Under the pieces are notes generated by a model. That model saw only the letters and a list, made by a program, of their open reading frames with translations. It made no database searches and was not told where the DNA came from. A DNA stretch of 64,000 bases, taken from positions 124,001-188,000 of the forward strand of contig NZ_JNJI01000002.1 of NCBI RefSeq assembly GCF_000702725.1. Direction: 5' to 3'. Each line of letters begins with the position of its first letter. Position 1 is the stretch's first letter. Positions 45,461 through 55,696 of the stretch are shown here, piece after piece. This DNA is from Mesoplasma photuris ATCC 49581 (GTDB lineage: Bacteria; Bacillota_I; Bacilli_A; Mycoplasmatales; Mycoplasmataceae). A program made the translations under genes and the position numbers.

Positions 45461-45486
45461 AAAAAAATAAACCTTAGGTTTATTTT
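45461..45486 (-). terminator. terminator of ychF
   Basis: On the minus strand AAATAAACC pairs with GGTTTATTT around a TAAG-type loop, with T after. Confidence 0.87.
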
Positions 45487-46579
45487 AATTATTAAATTTA
45501 AAGAAGCAAACGTCCCCATCTTGCATAATGTATCCTTTTCCTTCAAGTCTCATTCTACCGTTTTCTTTAACAGCTTTTTCTGATTTAAATTCTTCTAAAT
45601 CGCTAATGTGATATATATCAGCTTTGATAAATCCTTTTTCAAAATCTGTATGAATAATACCAGCACATTGTGGTGCTGTTGCTCCTTTAGGGAATTGTCA
45701 AGATCTAGCCTCTTGTGGTCCAGCTGTGAAGTAAGTTTGTAAACCAAGTGTTTGGTATGCTGCTTGAATTAAAGAATCTAGCCCTGATTGTTCGGCACCT
45801 AAATCACTTAAAAATTCATTTCTTTCTTCTTCAGAAGCTTCGGATAAGTCCTCTTCAATTTTTGCACAAATCTTAACAACAAGTGAATTGGAATTTTTAG
45901 CAAATTCTTTAACTAATTTTACATATTCATTGTCTTCTATTAACTCATCATCATTAACATTACATACATAAATGAATGGTTTAGCAGTTAATAATTGAAA
46001 GCCGCTTAAAATTTTAGTTTCATCATCGCTTAAATCAAGAGTGTTTAATAAATTTCCATCATACAAACATTTTTCCAATTTAACTAAAACATCATGTTCT
46101 GCTTTAAAGTTTTTGTCTCCACCCCTAACTTTTGGTAGAATTCTTTCAATTCTTTTTTTAATTGTAGCTTCATCAGATAACATTAATTCTAAGTTAATTA
46201 TTTCAATATCTCTAATAGGATCAACAGAACCCTCAACGTGAGTGATATCTTTATTTTCAAAACATCTTACAACTTCACAAATTGCATCAGTTTCTCTAAT
46301 GTTTGCTAAAAAAGCATTCCCCAATCCTTCACCTTTACTTGCACCTGCAATTAGACCTGCAATATCAACAAATTCTATTGTTGTCGCTATTTTTTTCTTT
46401 GATTGAAAAACTTCTGCTAATAGATCAATTCTAGAGTCTGGAACTTCAACCACACCAACATTTGGTTCGATTGTTGCAAATGGATAATTTGCTGCTTCTA
46501 CTTTAGAATTTGTTATCGCGTTAAATAATGTCGACTTACCAACGTTTGGTAAACCAACTATTCCTACTTTTAATGCCAT
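45485..46579 (-). CDS. ychF: redox-regulated ATPase YchF (Obg family)
   Basis: This 364-residue ribosome-associated ATPase has the P loop Gly-Leu-Pro-Asn-Val-Gly-Lys-Ser-Thr at residues 9-17, the G3 region Asp-Ile-Ala-Gly-Leu-Ile, the G4-like Asn-Val-Asn-Asp (the altered form typical of YchF, which prefers ATP), and a C-terminal TGS domain. Two TGA or one Trp codons are in the last third. It starts one base after the DUF951 gene, so the two are tightly coupled. Confidence 0.96.
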
Positions 46580-46580
46580 A

Positions 46581-46772
46581 TTATATCTCCTTAATTTCTT
46601 TTATTTGTTTATTCATCACTTCTCTTGATAACTCTATAAATAGATCGTTTTTGATAGAAGATTGAAACTTAAATTTTGCACCTTTTCTAATTAATGTTCA
46701 TCAAATAGTTTTGCTTGGGTGACTTTTTTTAAGTGATATTTGATCACCTATTTTTAAATTTTCATATTTCAT
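46581..46772 (-). CDS. DUF951 family protein without the usual cysteines
   Basis: This 63-residue protein matches the DUF951 family: Gly-Asp-Gln-Ile-Ser-Leu-Lys-Lys-Ser-His-Pro-Ser near the start, then two Trp (both TGA, Ile-Trp-Trp-Thr) and Arg-Lys-Gly-Ala-Lys-Phe-Lys. Most members have a Cys-x-x-Cys and a Pro-Cys-Gly; none of these Cys is present here. It lies one base after rsmG and one base before ychF, the same company DUF951 keeps in other Firmicutes. The function is unknown. The two TGA codons and short length make it easy to miss. Confidence 0.8.
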
Positions 46773-46773
46773 A

Positions 46774-47472
46774 CTATTTACTTTCTTTTTTTATTTGAGA
46801 GTATTTTCTTGGATACATATCACTTGTAGATTTCGTTTTAAGATAGAACAAATTAACTCTAACTCCAAAACCAGTATCTGCTAAAACTTGCTTGTTTTCT
46901 AAACTTAATGCTAGTCTTTTGTCTTTACCTTTTAAATCAAGAATTTCTTCCTCAGCTCTTGGCCCTTTTAATGCAATGAAATGTCCACCAACTTTAATTA
47001 GTTGAACTCCAATTTCTAATAAAATATCTAAGTAAGCAACAGCTCTTGATATTACAATATCAAATTTTTCTTTTTGAATTACTGATATTTCTTCAGCTCT
47101 TTGATTAGAAACTTCAATATCTTTTAAATTTAATTTTTGAATTAACAAATTTAAAAAATTAACTTTTTTACCATTAGATTCAATCAGGGTTATTTTTGTA
47201 TTTGGAAAAAATATTTTCAAAACAACACCAGGAAAACCGGGACCAGTTCCGATGTCTGCAATTTTTTGATCTTTAATTTTAAAATTATTTGTAAAAAGTA
47301 AAGAATCTAAAAAATGTTTTTCGAATACTTCATCCATTTCTGATATTCTTGTTAGATTATATTTACTGTTTTCTTCAATTAAAATTTCATAATATCTATT
47401 TAGTTTACTTTTAATATCGTCTGTTAGTTCGATGTTTTCTAATTCATCAAAAATTGTTCAATTTGTAAACAT
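46774..47472 (-). CDS. rsmG: 16S rRNA (guanine-N7)-methyltransferase RsmG
   Basis: This 232-residue SAM-dependent enzyme methylates G527 of 16S rRNA. Phe-Leu-Asp-Ser-Leu near residue 58, Ile-Ala-Asp-Ile-Gly-Thr-Gly-Pro-Gly-Phe-Pro-Gly near residue 70, and Ile-Ser-Arg-Ala-Val near residue 140 are family motifs. One TGA Trp is at residue 5. It starts 8 bases after pgsA and is followed by the DUF951 gene and ychF, giving a four-gene operon. Confidence 0.94.
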
Positions 47473-47480
47473 CTTTCCCC

Positions 47481-48104
47481 CTAAAATAAACTTGGTCTTG
47501 CTTTGATAAAGTAAACTGCACCACTATAAATACTAAAGAAAGTTGCAATATACATTGGAATCATTAATAATTGATTTTCTCAACCATATTCTTTTCAACC
47601 ATCAACGAATTTGAAATTTACAAAGAATAAAATTGATAAACCAATCATTTGGAATGTCGTTTTTAATTTACCACCCATTCCAGCAGCAAGGGTAACACCT
47701 TTTTTTGAAAGAATCATTCTGATGAAATCTACCAAAATATCTCTTAAAATTAAAACTAAAGTCATTCACACCGGCAACATTCCAGTAGTTGCAAATAAAA
47801 TTAATACAGAATTAACTAAAAGCTTATCTGCAATTGGATCAAAGAATTTTCCAAAGTCAGTTACTTGATTATTTTTTCTTGCTAAATAACCATCAAGAAA
47901 GTCTGTAAATGATGCTAAAACAAATACCAAACCAGCTACTAGTCATAATATTGGTAATTTGAATTGTCCTTCTCCTAAAACTCATTTAAAAGTAGGCATT
48001 TCTGCATAATGACTAACCAATATCAGTACTATTACAACAGGAACTAATGCAAGTCTAACAAGAGTTAAAATATTCGGTAAATTCATTTTTTGTTTTTGTT
48101 TCAT
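47481..48104 (-). CDS. pgsA: CDP-diacylglycerol-glycerol-3-phosphate phosphatidyltransferase
   Basis: This 207-residue membrane enzyme makes phosphatidylglycerol phosphate, the precursor of phosphatidylglycerol and cardiolipin. The CDP-alcohol phosphotransferase motif Asp-Gly-x2-Ala-Arg-x8-Gly-x3-Asp-x3-Asp is complete from residue 70 onward. About five hydrophobic segments are seen. It starts [12 protein letters not shown]; the second Met at residue 7 would give the common family start. Trp codons are TGA. Confidence 0.94.
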
Positions 48105-48133
48105 AGCAACCTCATTCTGTATTAATTTTATCA

Positions 48134-48163
48134 CAAAATAAAAAAGCCTACTAATGTAGACTT
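48134..48163 (-). terminator. terminator of the amino-acid permease gene
   Basis: On the minus strand AGTCTAC and GTAGGCT pair (one G-T) around ATTA and lead into six T. Confidence 0.85.
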
Positions 48164-49754
48164 AATCTATTTGCCCTTCAAATCCATCGGTAAATGGATC
48201 CTTTTTAAATTTATATTCTTGAATGAAGTGAGCAATTGTTGTTGCTGCAATTCCTAACACAAATAACAATAAGAATATTGGTCCATCTGATTTAATTCAA
48301 GATACCGTAGGGTCTCCACCCATTTCATACATCACGTTCATTGGAACTAAAAATCCGAAGATACCTAATCCAACAAATGCAGCGATGAATATTGAACAAA
48401 TAATTGCAATCGGTACGAAACCTTTGATTTTATCAACTTTAACTTTACCAGTTTTTCTGTTTCTTAATCCAGCAATCATTAATAATGTGAACATCATGAA
48501 TGATAAACATGGGGCTGTTGAAGACATTATTCCAATAAACTTAGTCATGTTTCCTGCAACAGAGCCTATGTAACCTGAAAGATCTTCTGAACTTGCAGGA
48601 ATTTCTGTTGCAACCCCTTTTCAACTATCATTAGTTGCTAATAATCCAACCGTTAAGAATAGAACAAATACAACAACTGAAAATATCATTTGAGTGTATC
48701 CCGCTCTTGCATAATTCATATTACGGTTTTTTGAGTAAATTAATTTTGCTTTAGCATCTGAATCATAACCCACAACACCAATTCTTGAGAAAATATTAAT
48801 TCCTAGAACACAGATAATCATTAAAATGATGTTTGATAATATCGTTGCAACTTTTGCTGCTGTTGAAGATGCATCTTCTGGCATTACACCACCATTAAAT
48901 AATTTAGCTAACATATTTTGGATTGATCCATCTTCTGAACCCATGAATAATGAAATAGCCATTAATATATATAGAACTGCTACGAAAATCATACCAATCA
49001 ATAGCGCTTTAGGAACTACTTCTTTATGTTTGGCTGTTTTTTGGTAGTTTGCTATATAAATAAATCCATCAAATGAGAAAAGTATTCCACCAAATCCTCT
49101 TAAGAACAATCCTCCATCAAAGTCTGAAGTTGATCATGGGTGATCACCTTCTCCAGTAGCGCCGCCTACATTACCATTACCGAAAACTCCATCTTCAATA
49201 TTCATTGCACCAATTACAAATCCTGCAACAAGTGCTATTAATAAAGGTATGAATTTAAATACAGTACCGAAAACTTGGATTCTGTTTGATCAATTCATCG
49301 CATACATGTTAACGAATAAACCAATAACTATAATTGATATACCAACACATGTATAAATAATAAACATTTCAGTAACTGACAACGGAACGTTCATAGCTTG
49401 AAATAAATAAGTTATAAATCCTGCTGTAAAAACCGCTTGACATGATGGTATATAAACAATTAGGTAAATTAATGAGAAAAACGATGCTGTTTTCCTACCA
49501 ATAAACAACTTAGTTCAATTGGCAACGGTTCCGTTCCCAAAATGTTTAGTTGCTGATGAAATCTCCATAAACACATACACCATCGCTACAGCTACCATAC
49601 CAACAATTGCTCATAATATAATAGCAATAATAGGGTTAGCTGTCGATGTTAATAATTCGTTGTTTTTCATGTATATACCTGAACCAACAACTGTTCCAAC
49701 AACCATTACAAATAGCGTTAGAAATTCAAAGAACTTTGCTTTGCTTTTTATCAT
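48162..49754 (-). CDS. APC family amino acid permease
   Basis: This 530-residue inner-membrane protein has the N-terminal Gly-Thr-Val-Val-Gly-Ser-Gly-Ile-Tyr motif at residues 20-28 that marks amino acid/polyamine/organocation permeases. At least 12 hydrophobic segments follow. Conserved stretches such as Gly-Gly-Ile-Leu-Phe-Ser-Phe-Asp-Gly-Phe fit this family. A large outside loop with Gly-Gly-Ala-Thr-Gly-Glu-Gly lies near residue 185. Substrate is not known. Trp codons are TGA in several loops. It begins 76 bases after mgtA. Confidence 0.88.
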
Positions 49755-49830: not shown

Positions 49831-52512
49831 TTACAATCAGGAATGAAATAGTTTTTGATAAGAGGTTTTAAATATTTCTGAAACAACTCACGAAATTGGT
49901 ATTAAAAACAATAATCACAACCATCAAAATGCATATTTTTGATTGATCATTGCATTAAATCCTAAATTATTTTGTGGCATTACAAGACCATCAATAAAAA
50001 CAAATAATAATGCTATTGAAATAAATCCCAACATACTTAAAAATAGCATTTTTGAGGGTCTTGATTCAATAAACGATAACTTGTGTGTTCTATAAACAAA
50101 AATTATCATTACGTGTGTTATCAATGATTCAACAAAAAATCCAGTTTGAAACATTTGTAAATTTTGATTATATTCTTGTGATCCAATAATTCCTGTGATT
50201 TGTGATCCATTACTTAATAGACCAAAGACAAAACCCATAACAACGAAGTTTAAAATTGTAATAATAGTTTCTGCTAAACCTGTAAACAAACCAAAGGGAA
50301 TGATTGACTTAGCATTTCAAGTTTTAGGTTTTAAAATGGTATCTTCATCAACTGTGTCAAATACAAAGATTAAATTAGCAAAATCAAAAATTAAATTTTG
50401 TATTAAAAGTTGAATTGGAGACATCGCAGAAAATTCAAATCACAAAGCACTTATGAATAATGAAAGCATCAAACCAAAGTTTGCTGCAACAGTAATCTTG
50501 ATGTATTTGATTGCATTTGAAAATATTTTTCTACCTTTAACAAAAGAGTTTTCTAAAACTCTTAAGTCTTTTTCCAAAAGAATAACATCTGCAGCCGACT
50601 TAGCTAATGGTGTTGCATTATTAACTGATATTCCTACATCAGCTTTTTTAAGTGCTGCTGCATCATTAACTCCATCACCCAAATAAGCAACCACATGATT
50701 TTCTTTAAAAGAGTTAATTAGTCTGGCTTTGTCTATTGGTGATAGTCTTGTGAATAATTTAGAAAATTCGATTACTTCTTCTAATTTTTGGTCATTTAGT
50801 TTTTCAATTTTTGAACCTTCTAAAACTTCTGAAGCAGAAATATTTAAATCTCGGGCAACTTTTTTAGATACTTGAGTGGCATCACCTGTTAGTATCTTTA
50901 AATCGATATTATATTTTTTGATAAATTCAACAGCTTCAATAACACCTGGTTTTAATACTTCAGCAAATGCTGCCATTCCTTCATATATCATTTCTGATTG
51001 AGTAATTTCATTAGTAGTTTTAGACGCAATTAAAATTGTTCTAAAACCATTATTCATCATTTCATTGTTTTGCTTGTTTATTTCCTTGATATGAACTGGT
51101 GTTATATCAACAATTTTGTTGTTGATTCTGACTTTAGATATCATGGTCATCATTTCAGAAATGGAACCTTTTGTTATTTGTAGTGTTTCTTGGTTATCTC
51201 TTACTAAAACTGTTGTGATTCTTGTAAGATGATCAAATGGTACTGATTCTATAAGTTCTAAATTATCAAAAGATATATTAATATTTTTCAAAATTGCTTG
51301 ATCCATTTTGTTTATTAAGTTTTCTTGATAGAAAGAATTGATTTGAATTAATTTTTTAAGCAATTTCGATTCCACACCATCAAAATTTTGCAAATAGTCT
51401 AAAGATATATCATCTAATGTTAAAGTTCCTGTTTTATCAGTTGCTAGAATGTTTACACTTCCCATATTTTGGACCACAGACAAGTTTTTAATAACAACTT
51501 TCTCTTTTGCTAATTGCTTGCTTCCTAATTTTAAATTTGAAGAAATAATTGCCGGAAGTGCTTCGGGTGTTAAAGCAACAGCAATTGATAGAGCAAAAAC
51601 AAGTGGTTGAATTCAATCTGATCAACCATTTTTTCCAAAAGCAGCAATAAATATTACCGGTACCATTACTAAAATTGAAAAAACTAATATTTTTGTAATT
51701 TTAGCAAGACCTACCTCGTAATCAGATTCAGTTTCTTGATCAGACATTTCTATTATTGAATTTGCATAATTATCTGAACCTAAGTTAATAATAATTGCCA
51801 GACACGTCCCTGTCAAAATAGTTGTTTGAGAAAAAATTATATTTTCTAATTCAATTAATCTTTCTTTAGTATTATTAATTTTTTTAAAAATTTCGTTGCT
51901 TTCTCCCGTGAGAGAAGATTCATCTACAGAAAAATCCTTCGTTCAAATCACTCTCGCATCTGCAGGAACTATATCCCCTTGGTGTAGAACAATGATATCT
52001 CCATAAGTTAAACTTGATTGCTCAATTTGAATTAAATCATCTTTAATTGTTAAGAAATTTAATTTATCAATGTTAGTAACTTTTTTGTTCAAAACAAAAA
52101 AGTTATTTTCTATCATTTTATTTAATTCAATATTCATTTTATGAGCTTTAACCTCTTGTAAAAAATCCACAGTACCAGCTATAAAAATCATGAAGATAAC
52201 AATCAGGGCAGAAATTAAATTTATAATATCTAAATCGATAAAGAAGTAAATTAGCATTTCTGATAATCCTATAGCTAAAAGTAACAAGTTAAATGGTTCA
52301 GTGATTACTCCAAAAAGTTTTTTGAAATATGGAAACTTTTTAACTTGAACTTCATTTTTGCCAAATTTTTCTTGAATTTTCTTTCTACTATCATAATCAA
52401 TTCCAATTTGAGAATCAAAACTCTCTAGTAAATCATCTTTATTCATATTCGAAATTTTAATAACTTTAGACTCATTAGAATATTTCATTTCAGTGTTTTT
52501 TTTATTCTTCAT
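49831..52512 (-). CDS. mgtA: magnesium-transporting P-type ATPase
   Basis: This 893-residue membrane pump belongs to P-type group IIIB (MgtA/MgtB). The phosphorylation motif Asp-Lys-Thr-Gly-Thr-Leu-Thr is near residue 360, the actuator loop is Leu-Thr-Gly-Glu-Ser near residue 200, and the hinge is Gly-Asp-Gly-Val-Asn-Asp-Ala-Ala-Ala-Leu. The latter is followed by membrane segments with Leu-Leu-Ile-Gln-Asn-Leu-Ile-Phe-Asp, as in MgtA. I extended the end through a TGA to TAA at 49831. The start follows AGGAG. It probably imports Mg2+. No clear magnesium riboswitch was seen upstream. Confidence 0.93.
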
Positions 52513-52559: not shown

Positions 52560-52588
52560 AATAAAAAAAGAACTTGCGTTCTTTTAAA
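52560..52588 (-). terminator. terminator of the membrane-anchored HU gene
   Basis: On the minus strand AAAGAAC and GTTCTTT pair around a GCAA tetraloop, then seven T. Confidence 0.9.
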
Positions 52589-53632
52589 TTAATTCATTGC
52601 TTCTTTTAAAGCTTTTGCTGGTTTGAATTTGGCTGTTGTGTGTTCAGGAACTTCAAGTACTTCACCAGTTAATGGATTTAAACCTGTTCTTGCTTCTTTA
52701 ATTTTTGGTGCAAGTTTACCAAAACCTGGAATAACTACTTCATTGCCTTGCACTAATTCTTTTTCAATAATTTCAAATGTTTTATTTACTAAATTATGTA
52801 AAGCTTTTTTAGTCATTTCTGGATTTTCATCATACATCATAGCTAAAATTTCAGATTTTGAAGTTTGAGGATATTTCTTTTTAGCTTTTTTAATAGAATT
52901 TACAGAATCATTATTTTCAGTAGTTGGAATAATGATTGGTTTGATTGTTTCTGATTTAACAACCGGTTTTGAAACTTCCTTTTCAACCTCTGGAGAAGTT
53001 GTTGTTGTTTTTGTCGATTGTTTAGCAACCGGTGTTTCTTCTTCATCGATCAAAGTAATTTCTTCTGTAATTTCTTCAATGATCACTGGTTGACCACTTT
53101 GCAATCTTGCAATAATTTCATCTAAAGTTGGGTTTTTAACATCTTTATGTTCAACTGGTTGTTCAACATTTTCGATAACTGGTGTTTCTTCATTTTCACA
53201 TTCACAAGCACCATGACAACCACAACCACAATCGTAGTTGATGTAAGCGTCTTCTTCATTTTCTTCAGAAATAACAATTTTTTCACCTCTTGAGTAAACT
53301 GAAATAATTGATAATACTGCTCAAATAAAGAATGAAGCAGGAACAACAGCCAATAAGTAGATATTTGCTGCGTAGTCTAATTTAAATGCTATTTCTGGAA
53401 TAGTGGTTGAGGCTGAAATTGCTTCATTCACTTTATCAATTGATAAAGTAATAATACCCATTGGTCCCATCATAAAATCTGATGTTAAACCACCTTCGTT
53501 GTAAACAGCTTGATTGATCACTTTTAATAATAGTGTAATAACAACCGATGTTAAAAACACTGTTAAGAAAAATATTAAAGCATATTTTAATACTTTTTTA
53601 CTATTTGAATTTTCTAATACTTTGATTTCCAT
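52589..53632 (-). CDS. membrane protein with C-terminal HU/IHF DNA-binding domain
   Basis: This 347-residue protein combines parts rarely seen together. Two hydrophobic segments lie at about residues 15-37 and 88-112. A Cys-rich cluster (Cys 135, 137, 139, His 140, Cys 143, 145) follows, then an acidic, Pro/Thr/Val/Lys-rich linker. Residues 257-347 form a complete HU domain: Thr-Ser-Lys-Ser-Glu-Ile-Leu, Ile-Pro-Gly-Phe-Gly-Lys-Leu, and the DNA-binding arm Ala-Arg-Thr-Gly-Leu-Asn-Pro-Leu-Thr-Gly-Glu. I checked that the two halves share one frame: TGA at codon 104 encodes Trp in Phe-Ile-Trp-Ala. With this topology the HU domain would face the cytoplasm. GGAGG precedes the ATG at 53632. Tethering DNA to the membrane is inferred. 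Confidence 0.85.
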
Positions 53633-53670
53633 AAAATCCTCCACATATTCAATATATTTAAATGATAGCA

Positions 53671-53692
53671 TTTACAATAAATCATTTGTAAA
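53671..53692 (-). promoter_or_regulatory. inverted repeat upstream of the HU-domain gene
   Basis: TTTACAA and TTGTAAA, seven bases each, form a perfect inverted repeat with an eight-base spacer, 39 bases or more before the ATG. Downstream on the minus strand TATCAT could be a -10 box, so the repeat overlaps the promoter zone. It could be an operator or part of a promoter; no factor is known. Confidence 0.4.
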
Positions 53693-53784: not shown

Positions 53785-53816
53785 TTAAAAAAGAAAATCT
53801 GCATATGCAGATTTAA
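53785..53816 (-). terminator. terminator of mnmG
   Basis: On the minus strand AAATCTGCA pairs with TGCAGATTT in a near-perfect palindrome followed by T-rich sequence. Confidence 0.87.
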
Positions 53817-53818
53817 TT

Positions 53819-55696
53819 TTACTGATTAGCGTATTCGTTTTTTAAATAGAATAGCAACATTTGAATATCAGCCGGATTAACACCCGTTATTCTTGATGCT
53901 TGACCAATATTTAGCGGCTTAACTTTGATCAGTTTTTGACGAGCTTCGCTAGCTAAATTAGCAACTTTATTATAATCAATATCAAATGGTATTTTTTTCT
54001 TTTCAAGTTTAGTTAATTTAGCAACTAATTCCCTCTCTTTTTTAACATAACCCTCGAAACGTATTTCAATTGCAATTGATTGTAATTGGTTAATTCTTAA
54101 GTTTTGTAACCCTGGAACAAAAGGTATTAATTCATTAATATCCACTGTTGGAATTTTAATAATTTCATAACCACTATAACCATGAGTTAATGTTGCTTGA
54201 CCTTTTTGATCAAGAATTTGTGCTAATTCTGATTTTGGTGTGAAGCGAACTTCTTTTAATTCACTAATTGCATTTCCAATTTGATCATTATATTCTTGAT
54301 ATTCTAGTCACTCAGCTTCTGATATTAAACCGATTTTGTAACCATATTCTTTTAAACGTATTTCGGCATTATCGTTTCTTAACAACAATCTGTGTTCTGC
54401 TCTTGATGTTAAAAGTCTATATGGTTCTCAAACACCCTTGTTAATTAAGTCATCAACAAGAACTCCAAGATAAGCTTCATCTCTTCTTAAAATTAATGGT
54501 TCTTTATTATCAATTTTTCTAACTGCATTGATCCCTGCTAATAAACCTTGACCAGCAGCTTCTTCATAACCACTAGTTCCATTAATTTGACCAGCAGTAA
54601 ACAAGTTTGCGACTGAATCTAATTCTAAATTTGGCATTAACTGCATTGGATCTATACAATCGTATTCAATTGCATAAGCTCAATTTTTCACTCGCATATT
54701 TTCAAATCCAGGAAGTGATTTTAGCATTAGTTCTTGCACTTCGATTGGCATAGATGTTGAGAAACCTTGAATATATCAAGCATCATCACTAAGTGATTCT
54801 GGTTCGATAAAAATTTGATGAGTTTCTTTATGTGGAAATCTTACAATTTTATCTTCAAAACTTGGACAATATCTTGGTCCAATAGATTCTACATTACCTG
54901 AATACATCGCTGATTTATGCAAGTTTTCTTCAATGATTTTTTTTGTTTCTTCTGTTGTATGTATTAAGTAACATAATTCTTGTTTTTCAATTGGTGTGTA
55001 CTCTTTAGTTGAAAAACTAAATGCTAATGGAGCATCAGTCCCGGGTTCTTTGATTGCTTTTGATAGATCAACAGAATCAATATAAACTCTCGCTGGCGTT
55101 CCTGTTTTAAACCTTAACAATGATATTCCTAATTCTTTTAATGATTCAGAAATACCATTAGTTGTTTTTTCATCATTTGGACCAGATTCATATCTTTCAA
55201 CACCCTTTAGTATTTCAGACTTTAAATAAGTTCCGGTTGTTAGAACTACTGCTTTTGCATGAATTTCTGTTCCATCAGCTAATAATACACCATAAGCTAC
55301 TCTATTTTTTATTAATAAACTAGTTACAGTGTTTGCAATCAAATCTAAGTTTTTTTGATTTTTAACAGCTCTTTGCATGTATTTTGAATATTCAATTTTA
55401 TCTGATTGAACTCTAAGTGCTCAAACACCGGGTCCACGAGATGAATTTAATAATTTTGTTTGTAATGCAGTTGCGTCAGCAGCTTTTGCCATTTCTCCAC
55501 CAAGAGCATCAATTTCACGAACAACAATTCCTTTAGCAGGTCCTCCAACACTTGGATTACATGGCATAGCAGCAATTTTATCTTCATATAAATTAATTAA
55601 CGCGGTTTTTTTACCAAGTCTTGCAGAAGCTAACGCAGCTTCTACTCCAGCATGTCCTCCACCAACAACTACAACTTCATAGTTTTGTATTTTCAT
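53819..55696 (-). CDS. mnmG: tRNA uridine 5-carboxymethylaminomethyl modification enzyme
   Basis: This 625-residue FAD enzyme, working with MnmE, modifies U34 of several tRNAs. The FAD-binding Gly-Gly-Gly-His-Ala-Gly-Val-Glu-Ala at residues 12-20, [10 protein letters not shown] near residue 47, and [10 protein letters not shown] near residue 365 are clear. Length is normal. TGA Trp codons occur at six or more places. It is divergent from pncA. Confidence 0.97.

Follow-up and report, generated by a model that had tools for sequence, protein, structure and literature searches.

A membrane-anchored HU-domain protein conserved in Mesoplasma and two further genera is a candidate nucleoid tether

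The window analysed in this study is a 64,000-nucleotide stretch of the genome of Mesoplasma photuris ATCC 49581, and its minus strand carries at 52589..53632 a gene for a protein of 347 residues, here called tmHU, when read with genetic code 4 (start ATG at 53632; stop TAA at 52591-52589, included). A sequence-only reading of this DNA had described the protein in one frame with exactly these coordinates and without naming the strand; the plus strand of 52589-53632 is full of stops. The 347-residue start was preferred over an in-frame ATG at 53671 because a Shine-Dalgarno sequence, GGAGG (53638..53642, minus strand), precedes the ATG at 53632, and the longer 360-residue frame returned by a mechanical ORF scan is unlikely. 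The sole tryptophan of tmHU, Trp104, is encoded by TGA (53321..53323, minus strand). The same site is a TGA-coded tryptophan in all four orthologues of the window's genus, and the long frames of the window contain 156 TGA codons vs 6 TGG; therefore this genome reads TGA as tryptophan, as the earlier reading had supposed. That reading had also named a frame error between residues 104 and 257 as a possible source of the unusual architecture, and none was found there. An artefact of frame or code was ruled out by the architecture conserved across species, the dN/dS values and the conserved TGA-coded tryptophan, and chance is excluded because the whole architecture recurs in 11 other species, with dN/dS pointing the same way.

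The surrounding genes also lie on the minus strand. On one side is mnmG (53819..55696), a conserved neighbour, and on the other is a gene for a P-type cation ATPase (49831..52512), a neighbour conserved in the genus, followed by the rest of the cluster, APC permease - pgsA - rsmG - ychF (45485..49754), from which parA-parB is absent here. A hairpin scan detected a terminator-like hairpin between mnmG and tmHU (53795..53814, minus strand). A second hairpin, AAAGAAC-GCAA-GTTCTTT followed by a T-run, lies 3' of the tmHU stop (52567..52584, minus strand); it was read by eye, its GC pairs being too few for detection by the scan. With hairpins on both of its sides, tmHU is probably transcribed alone, as its own transcription unit.

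The protein begins with two hydrophobic segments. Transmembrane (TM) helix 1 is placed at residues about 15-37 (53522..53590; about 18-36 by hydropathy) and ends in an invariant K37-x-x-N40, and TM helix 2 is placed by hydropathy at residues 94-112 (53297..53353), in agreement with the 15-37 and 88-112 given earlier. Between them lies a loop of residues 38-93 (53354..53521), predicted from charge to be on the outside, with a near-invariant G56-P57 and invariant D86 and N90. A flexible linker, residues 113-255 (52868..53296), follows. It had been described as a long acidic linker, which is correct near the membrane (26 D/E vs 7 K/R in residues 113-215) but not near the HU domain, where it turns basic. 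Within it a Cys/His cluster, CGCGCHGACEC, occupies exactly the residues first reported, 135-145 (53198..53230), with Cys 135, 137, 139, 143 and 145 and His140 (C5H). The C-terminal part, residues 257-347 (52592..52864), is an HU domain with the DNA-inserting arm NPLTGE and the C-terminal KFKPAKALKEAM. All of these parts are encoded on the minus strand. An AF2 model built from two sequences places helices at residues 10-44 and 78-114, with low confidence (pLDDT 41).

The earlier description of a full HU domain with a DNA-contacting arm was borne out by a PF00216 match over the whole domain (residues 258-347; E=1.9e-24; 86.2 bits vs a cut-off of 22.4; profile positions 2-90 of 90), and in alignments the arm NP-x-(T/N)-G and the DNA-contact residues FK..K.LK are conserved. 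A first impression from NCBIfam of an IHF-beta-like protein was rejected, as the scores against the IHF equivalogs fall below the cut-offs (beta, 57.6 bits vs 115; alpha, 49.9 bits vs 111). Likewise, the Pfam families of CCDC81-like HU and HU-HIG (PF18174, PF18175 and PF18291) give 12.3-12.9 bits vs cut-offs of 26-35. With 347 residues and two predicted TM helices, tmHU also departs from ordinary HU in size and solubility. By its domain, tmHU therefore classifies as a putative member of the HU/DNABII superfamily that is not an ordinary HU, an IHF, a CCDC81-like HU or an HU-HIG protein.

It had been proposed to look for a normal soluble HU elsewhere in the genome, and one of 90 residues is present at G000:C4:75709-75978 (G000 is the window genome). 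Therefore tmHU is an addition, and a second HU is not required for general compaction. A tree built from HU domains has a 100/99 branch that separates 21 membrane-type domains from soluble HUs; the soluble HUs of the three congeners (G001-G003) exist but were left out of this tree. A derivative lacking the TM part, G001_HUonlyLong, groups with the membrane-type domains, and G005_HU_KELI groups with the soluble HUs on a long branch. Soluble HU and tmHU share a complete HU domain, the arm and the C-terminal DNA-contact region, whereas soluble HU has about 90 residues and tmHU has 347, a TM hairpin, a long linker and a branch of its own.

The topology prediction that had been called for places the HU domain in the cytosol. 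All core tmHU members have a basic N-terminus and a loop that is acidic or close to neutral. Some tmHU paralogues have a strongly basic flank after TM helix 2, and the one of KELI type in G007 has strongly basic stretches on both of its cytosolic sides. However, the flank after TM helix 2 is acidic in the window protein, which makes the call for this protein alone weaker. G007, a Mesoplasma relative, also encodes a fusion (L132:6862-8130, plus strand) in which an N-terminal HU-like domain is followed by KKIKRKKK, one TM segment and a surface repeat domain. The arm of that HU-like domain is deleted, and the gene sits between surface-protein genes. Because of the basic N-terminus, the low-charge loop, the two TM helices and this fusion, tmHU is predicted, from hydropathy and charge, to be an integral membrane protein with its HU domain inside. 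The reverse arrangement, a surface protein with HU outside catching extracellular DNA, would have some background in the HU-like proteins found at the surface of certain bacteria and in the nucleotide requirement of mollicutes. It is very improbable for tmHU, since two TM helices and a basic N-terminus place the C-terminus inside and the HU-TM-surface fusion agrees.

In Mesoplasma orthologues Lys-rich repeats make up the linker, which has a weak likeness to the histone H1-like HC2 that stays under the Pfam cut-off (E 0.001), and at locus L015 it contains tandem arrays of 15, 60, 75 and 135 bp. The sequence-only reading had suggested that the protein might sense redox state or metal through its Cys cluster. 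The C5H cluster of the window protein would suit such a sensor, but the three congeners have 3 Cys in another spacing, and the cluster is absent from all Mesoplasma orthologues (0 Cys) and from that of G004. The cluster is lineage-specific, and because it is not conserved the redox or metal idea fails; it is largely refuted for the family and can be given hardly any probability.

When the full protein was searched for among relatives, the same architecture was found in 11 further species of three genera, so that homologues do carry the membrane part, whose constant absence had been named as evidence against the fusion. In the window's family (f1), 12 of the 60 species examined have the full TM+HU protein: all four of the window's genus (g1), the one species of g2 and all seven of Mesoplasma (g5). 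No TM+HU match was found in the other 48 species of the family, nearly all of which have a soluble HU. The order mnmG-tmHU is found in the window genome, g2 and Mesoplasma; in G002 the order is mnmG-purA-purB-tmHU-ATPase-permease, and matching pieces occur in G001 and G003. By gene order, tmHU evidently occupies one ancestral locus across the three genera. At the tmHU position, G022 has a protein of 326 residues that resembles transporter-type membrane proteins and was rejected as an HU. A phage or plasmid origin was likewise rejected: only the HU domain gave matches there, none of them covering 80% of tmHU. In the MnmG tree, g1, g2, g3 and g5 group together, and g3, which lacks tmHU, falls inside. 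The most economical history is one gain of tmHU followed by one or two losses, with horizontal transfer as an alternative.

In five species pairs dN/dS was 0.07-0.16 for the HU part and 0.08-0.29 for the TM part. For the linker it was 0.24-0.35 in four of the five pairs, and the ratio of 2.3 in the fifth is meaningless, as dS there is 0.04. The HU and TM ends are thus kept under purifying selection while the linker drifts. The conservation of tmHU across every examined species of the three genera probably reflects a real device for holding the chromosome at the membrane.

The TM module itself seems not to be a mere generic anchor; it may interact with a partner or ligand. In 20 copies of the module, some of them without HU, K37, N40, D86 and N90 do not vary and G56-P57 hardly does, and none of the copies tested matches a Pfam family over the cut-off. 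Where HU is missing, the module stands by itself, is doubled or is joined to other cytosolic parts (L033, L034, L035, L036 and L118). It was found in this family only, in g1, g2, g5 and two g3 genomes, apart from a few weak matches near 1e-4. In the window genome, a gene at L118:1807-2739 (minus strand; contig C2) has two TM modules and no HU, and is flanked by a topoisomerase/gyrase A-like gene and an ABC exporter. The conservation of the TM hairpin and outer loop (K37, N40, D86, N90 and GP) goes beyond what an anchor alone would need, and this raises the possibility of a membrane one-component regulator that works like ToxR or CadC, with the outer loop sensing and the cytosolic DNA-binding domain altering transcription. 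However, the domain is of HU/IHF type and not a sequence-reading HTH, there is no conserved regulated neighbour, and the outer loop is short, at about 50-75 residues, and its identity between genera is low, so that such a regulator seems quite unlikely.

Membrane anchoring combined with DNA binding is very likely for tmHU. The data fit best with the proposal, made in the sequence-only reading, that the protein tethers the nucleoid to the membrane: the membrane part is conserved together with the HU domain, the HU domain is predicted on the cytosolic side, and a soluble HU is present beside it. An integral-membrane nucleoid tether is thus the reasonably probable main function of tmHU. The two N-terminal TM helices would fix the protein in the sole membrane of the wall-less cell with both ends inside, and the long flexible linker would extend the HU domain into the cytosol. 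There the domain would dimerise, with itself or with soluble HU, and would bind and bend DNA with no strong sequence preference. Patches of the chromosome would in this way be held at the membrane, which would aid positioning of the nucleoid. Since HU is not sequence specific, a role at a particular locus would need something else.

Some Mesoplasma paralogues adjoin surface-protein genes, which points to an envelope role for those paralogues. Several TM-HU paralogues lie directly downstream of secreted-type spiralin-domain proteins of 1250-1375 residues (L059:7177-11814, L060:7138-12154 and L061:6484-11149) or beside lipoproteins, and in one case HU and a surface repeat protein form a direct fusion. 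This would agree with a factor for envelope or surface-protein assembly that unites the membrane with surface-protein genes or mRNAs in a transertion-like manner, chromosome anchoring being secondary. However, the core orthologue, that of the window, has housekeeping neighbours and no adjacent surface protein, which leaves an assembly factor improbable as an explanation of tmHU itself.

Nucleoid tethering has a possible connection to the loss of ParABS. ParB was found in none of the 18 genomes of g1-g5, whereas the 40 genomes counted in g6-g12 have it. The distribution of full-length chromosomal-type ParA is the same, with none in g1-g5, and weaker or partial ParA-like frames remain, for example in G002 and G027. 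The ParB-containing relatives that were read have rsmG-parA-parB-ychF, usually near mnmG, and the g1-g4 genomes read have rsmG-ychF. tmHU lies a few genes from the site of parAB loss in the same cluster. Where one contig carries both tmHU and dnaA, as in ten genomes, the two are about 14-79 kb apart. tmHU and ParB never occur together in family f1, but the naive p-value of 2e-8 for this exclusion means little, as it reflects one or two evolutionary events. The position beside the site of parAB loss is only suggestive for the same reason, and because the cluster is origin-side anyway. Furthermore, the sister genera g3 and g4 have neither ParAB nor tmHU, and f22, another family, has both ParB and a membrane HU, so that tmHU-like proteins are neither confined to genomes that lost ParAB nor always found in them; this weakens a simple exchange for ParABS. 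A takeover of anchoring and segregation by tmHU, following deletion of parABS from this same origin-side cluster in the common ancestor of Mesoplasma and its sister genera, is unlikely. A segregation role of any kind, in which tmHU would perhaps aid separation of sister chromosomes in cells without ParABS, is speculative and rather doubtful.

PMC8339304 describes the minimal cell Syn3A as having no parB and no annotated DNA-membrane attachment protein, and cites earlier work that counts Mesoplasma among groups in which no complete parABS system exists; PMC10445541 likewise concerns a related minimal cell without ParB or an annotated DNA-membrane attachment protein. For chromosome attachment and separation in wall-less, near-minimal bacteria that lack ParB, tmHU is a concrete and conserved candidate attachment in Mesoplasma, and it is probably also present in the near-minimal model M. 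florum. In the literature searched, which excluded most subscription journals, no membrane-anchored HU of mollicutes is described, and a word search of the main text of M. florum papers found no mention of one.

Several known systems share features with tmHU. HupB of mycobacteria and HupS of Streptomyces are soluble HUs with a Lys-rich, H1-like tail after the HU domain. They resemble Mesoplasma tmHU in having an HU domain beside a Lys-rich H1-like stretch, but their tail is C-terminal of HU, whereas in Mesoplasma tmHU the Lys-rich stretch is the linker and there is a membrane part. Noc and ParB, which bind DNA and function at the membrane or pole, are analogous to the proposed working of tmHU in bringing chromosomal DNA to the cell boundary; unlike them, tmHU has no ParB fold, no sequence-specific site and an integral TM anchor. 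CCDC81-like HU and HU-HIG proteins, some bacterial members of which are linked to the membrane or to a SPOR domain, also have HU-superfamily domains inside larger proteins, but the domain of tmHU is classic PF00216. Roles in chromosome partitioning have been proposed for these clades (Burroughs et al. 2017, as cited in PMC5906684).

A second, independently built membrane HU is found in f22, where all five sampled genomes (L157, L158, L159, L160 and L161) encode proteins of 420-538 residues in which an N-terminal TM hairpin is followed by a long linker and two HU-type domains. These share with tmHU the N-terminal TM hairpin, the long charged linker and the C-terminal HU. They differ from it in having two HU domains, a Cys pair in the outer loop, the standard code, one ParB kept in the genomes and a TM part unmatched by the A3 profile. 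The f22 genes adjoin lplA/lipA-type or gcvT-type genes. In G249 (f13), an extracellular domain and one TM segment precede a C-terminal partial HU. Judged from these architectures, the fusion of HU to a membrane anchor evidently arose at least twice, and loss of ParB is not required for it. The convergence in f22 supports membrane tethering as a common function, weakens the idea of a ParABS substitute and suggests that HU-membrane tethering is a recurrent solution.

Further arrangements of these modules were observed. A domain with the pattern RAK.DGS..I.E...EL...MTKKELI.FMKKI, for which the copies tested gave no Pfam match, is fused with HU and/or the TM module in varying order (L043, L046, L047, L049, L050, L008, L119, L124, L138 and L117). 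In G001, a TM-HU paralogue (L062:7286-8154, plus strand) has stops between its TM and HU parts, and the copy in G003 is whole, so the G001 copy appears to have decayed recently. Tandem pairs of long HU proteins of about 230-245 residues with no obvious TM segment occur in g10 (L048 and L052). Small XRE-type regulators directly follow KELI-HU membrane genes at L139:6092-6316 and L140:6094-6318, beside lipoproteins and an ABC permease.
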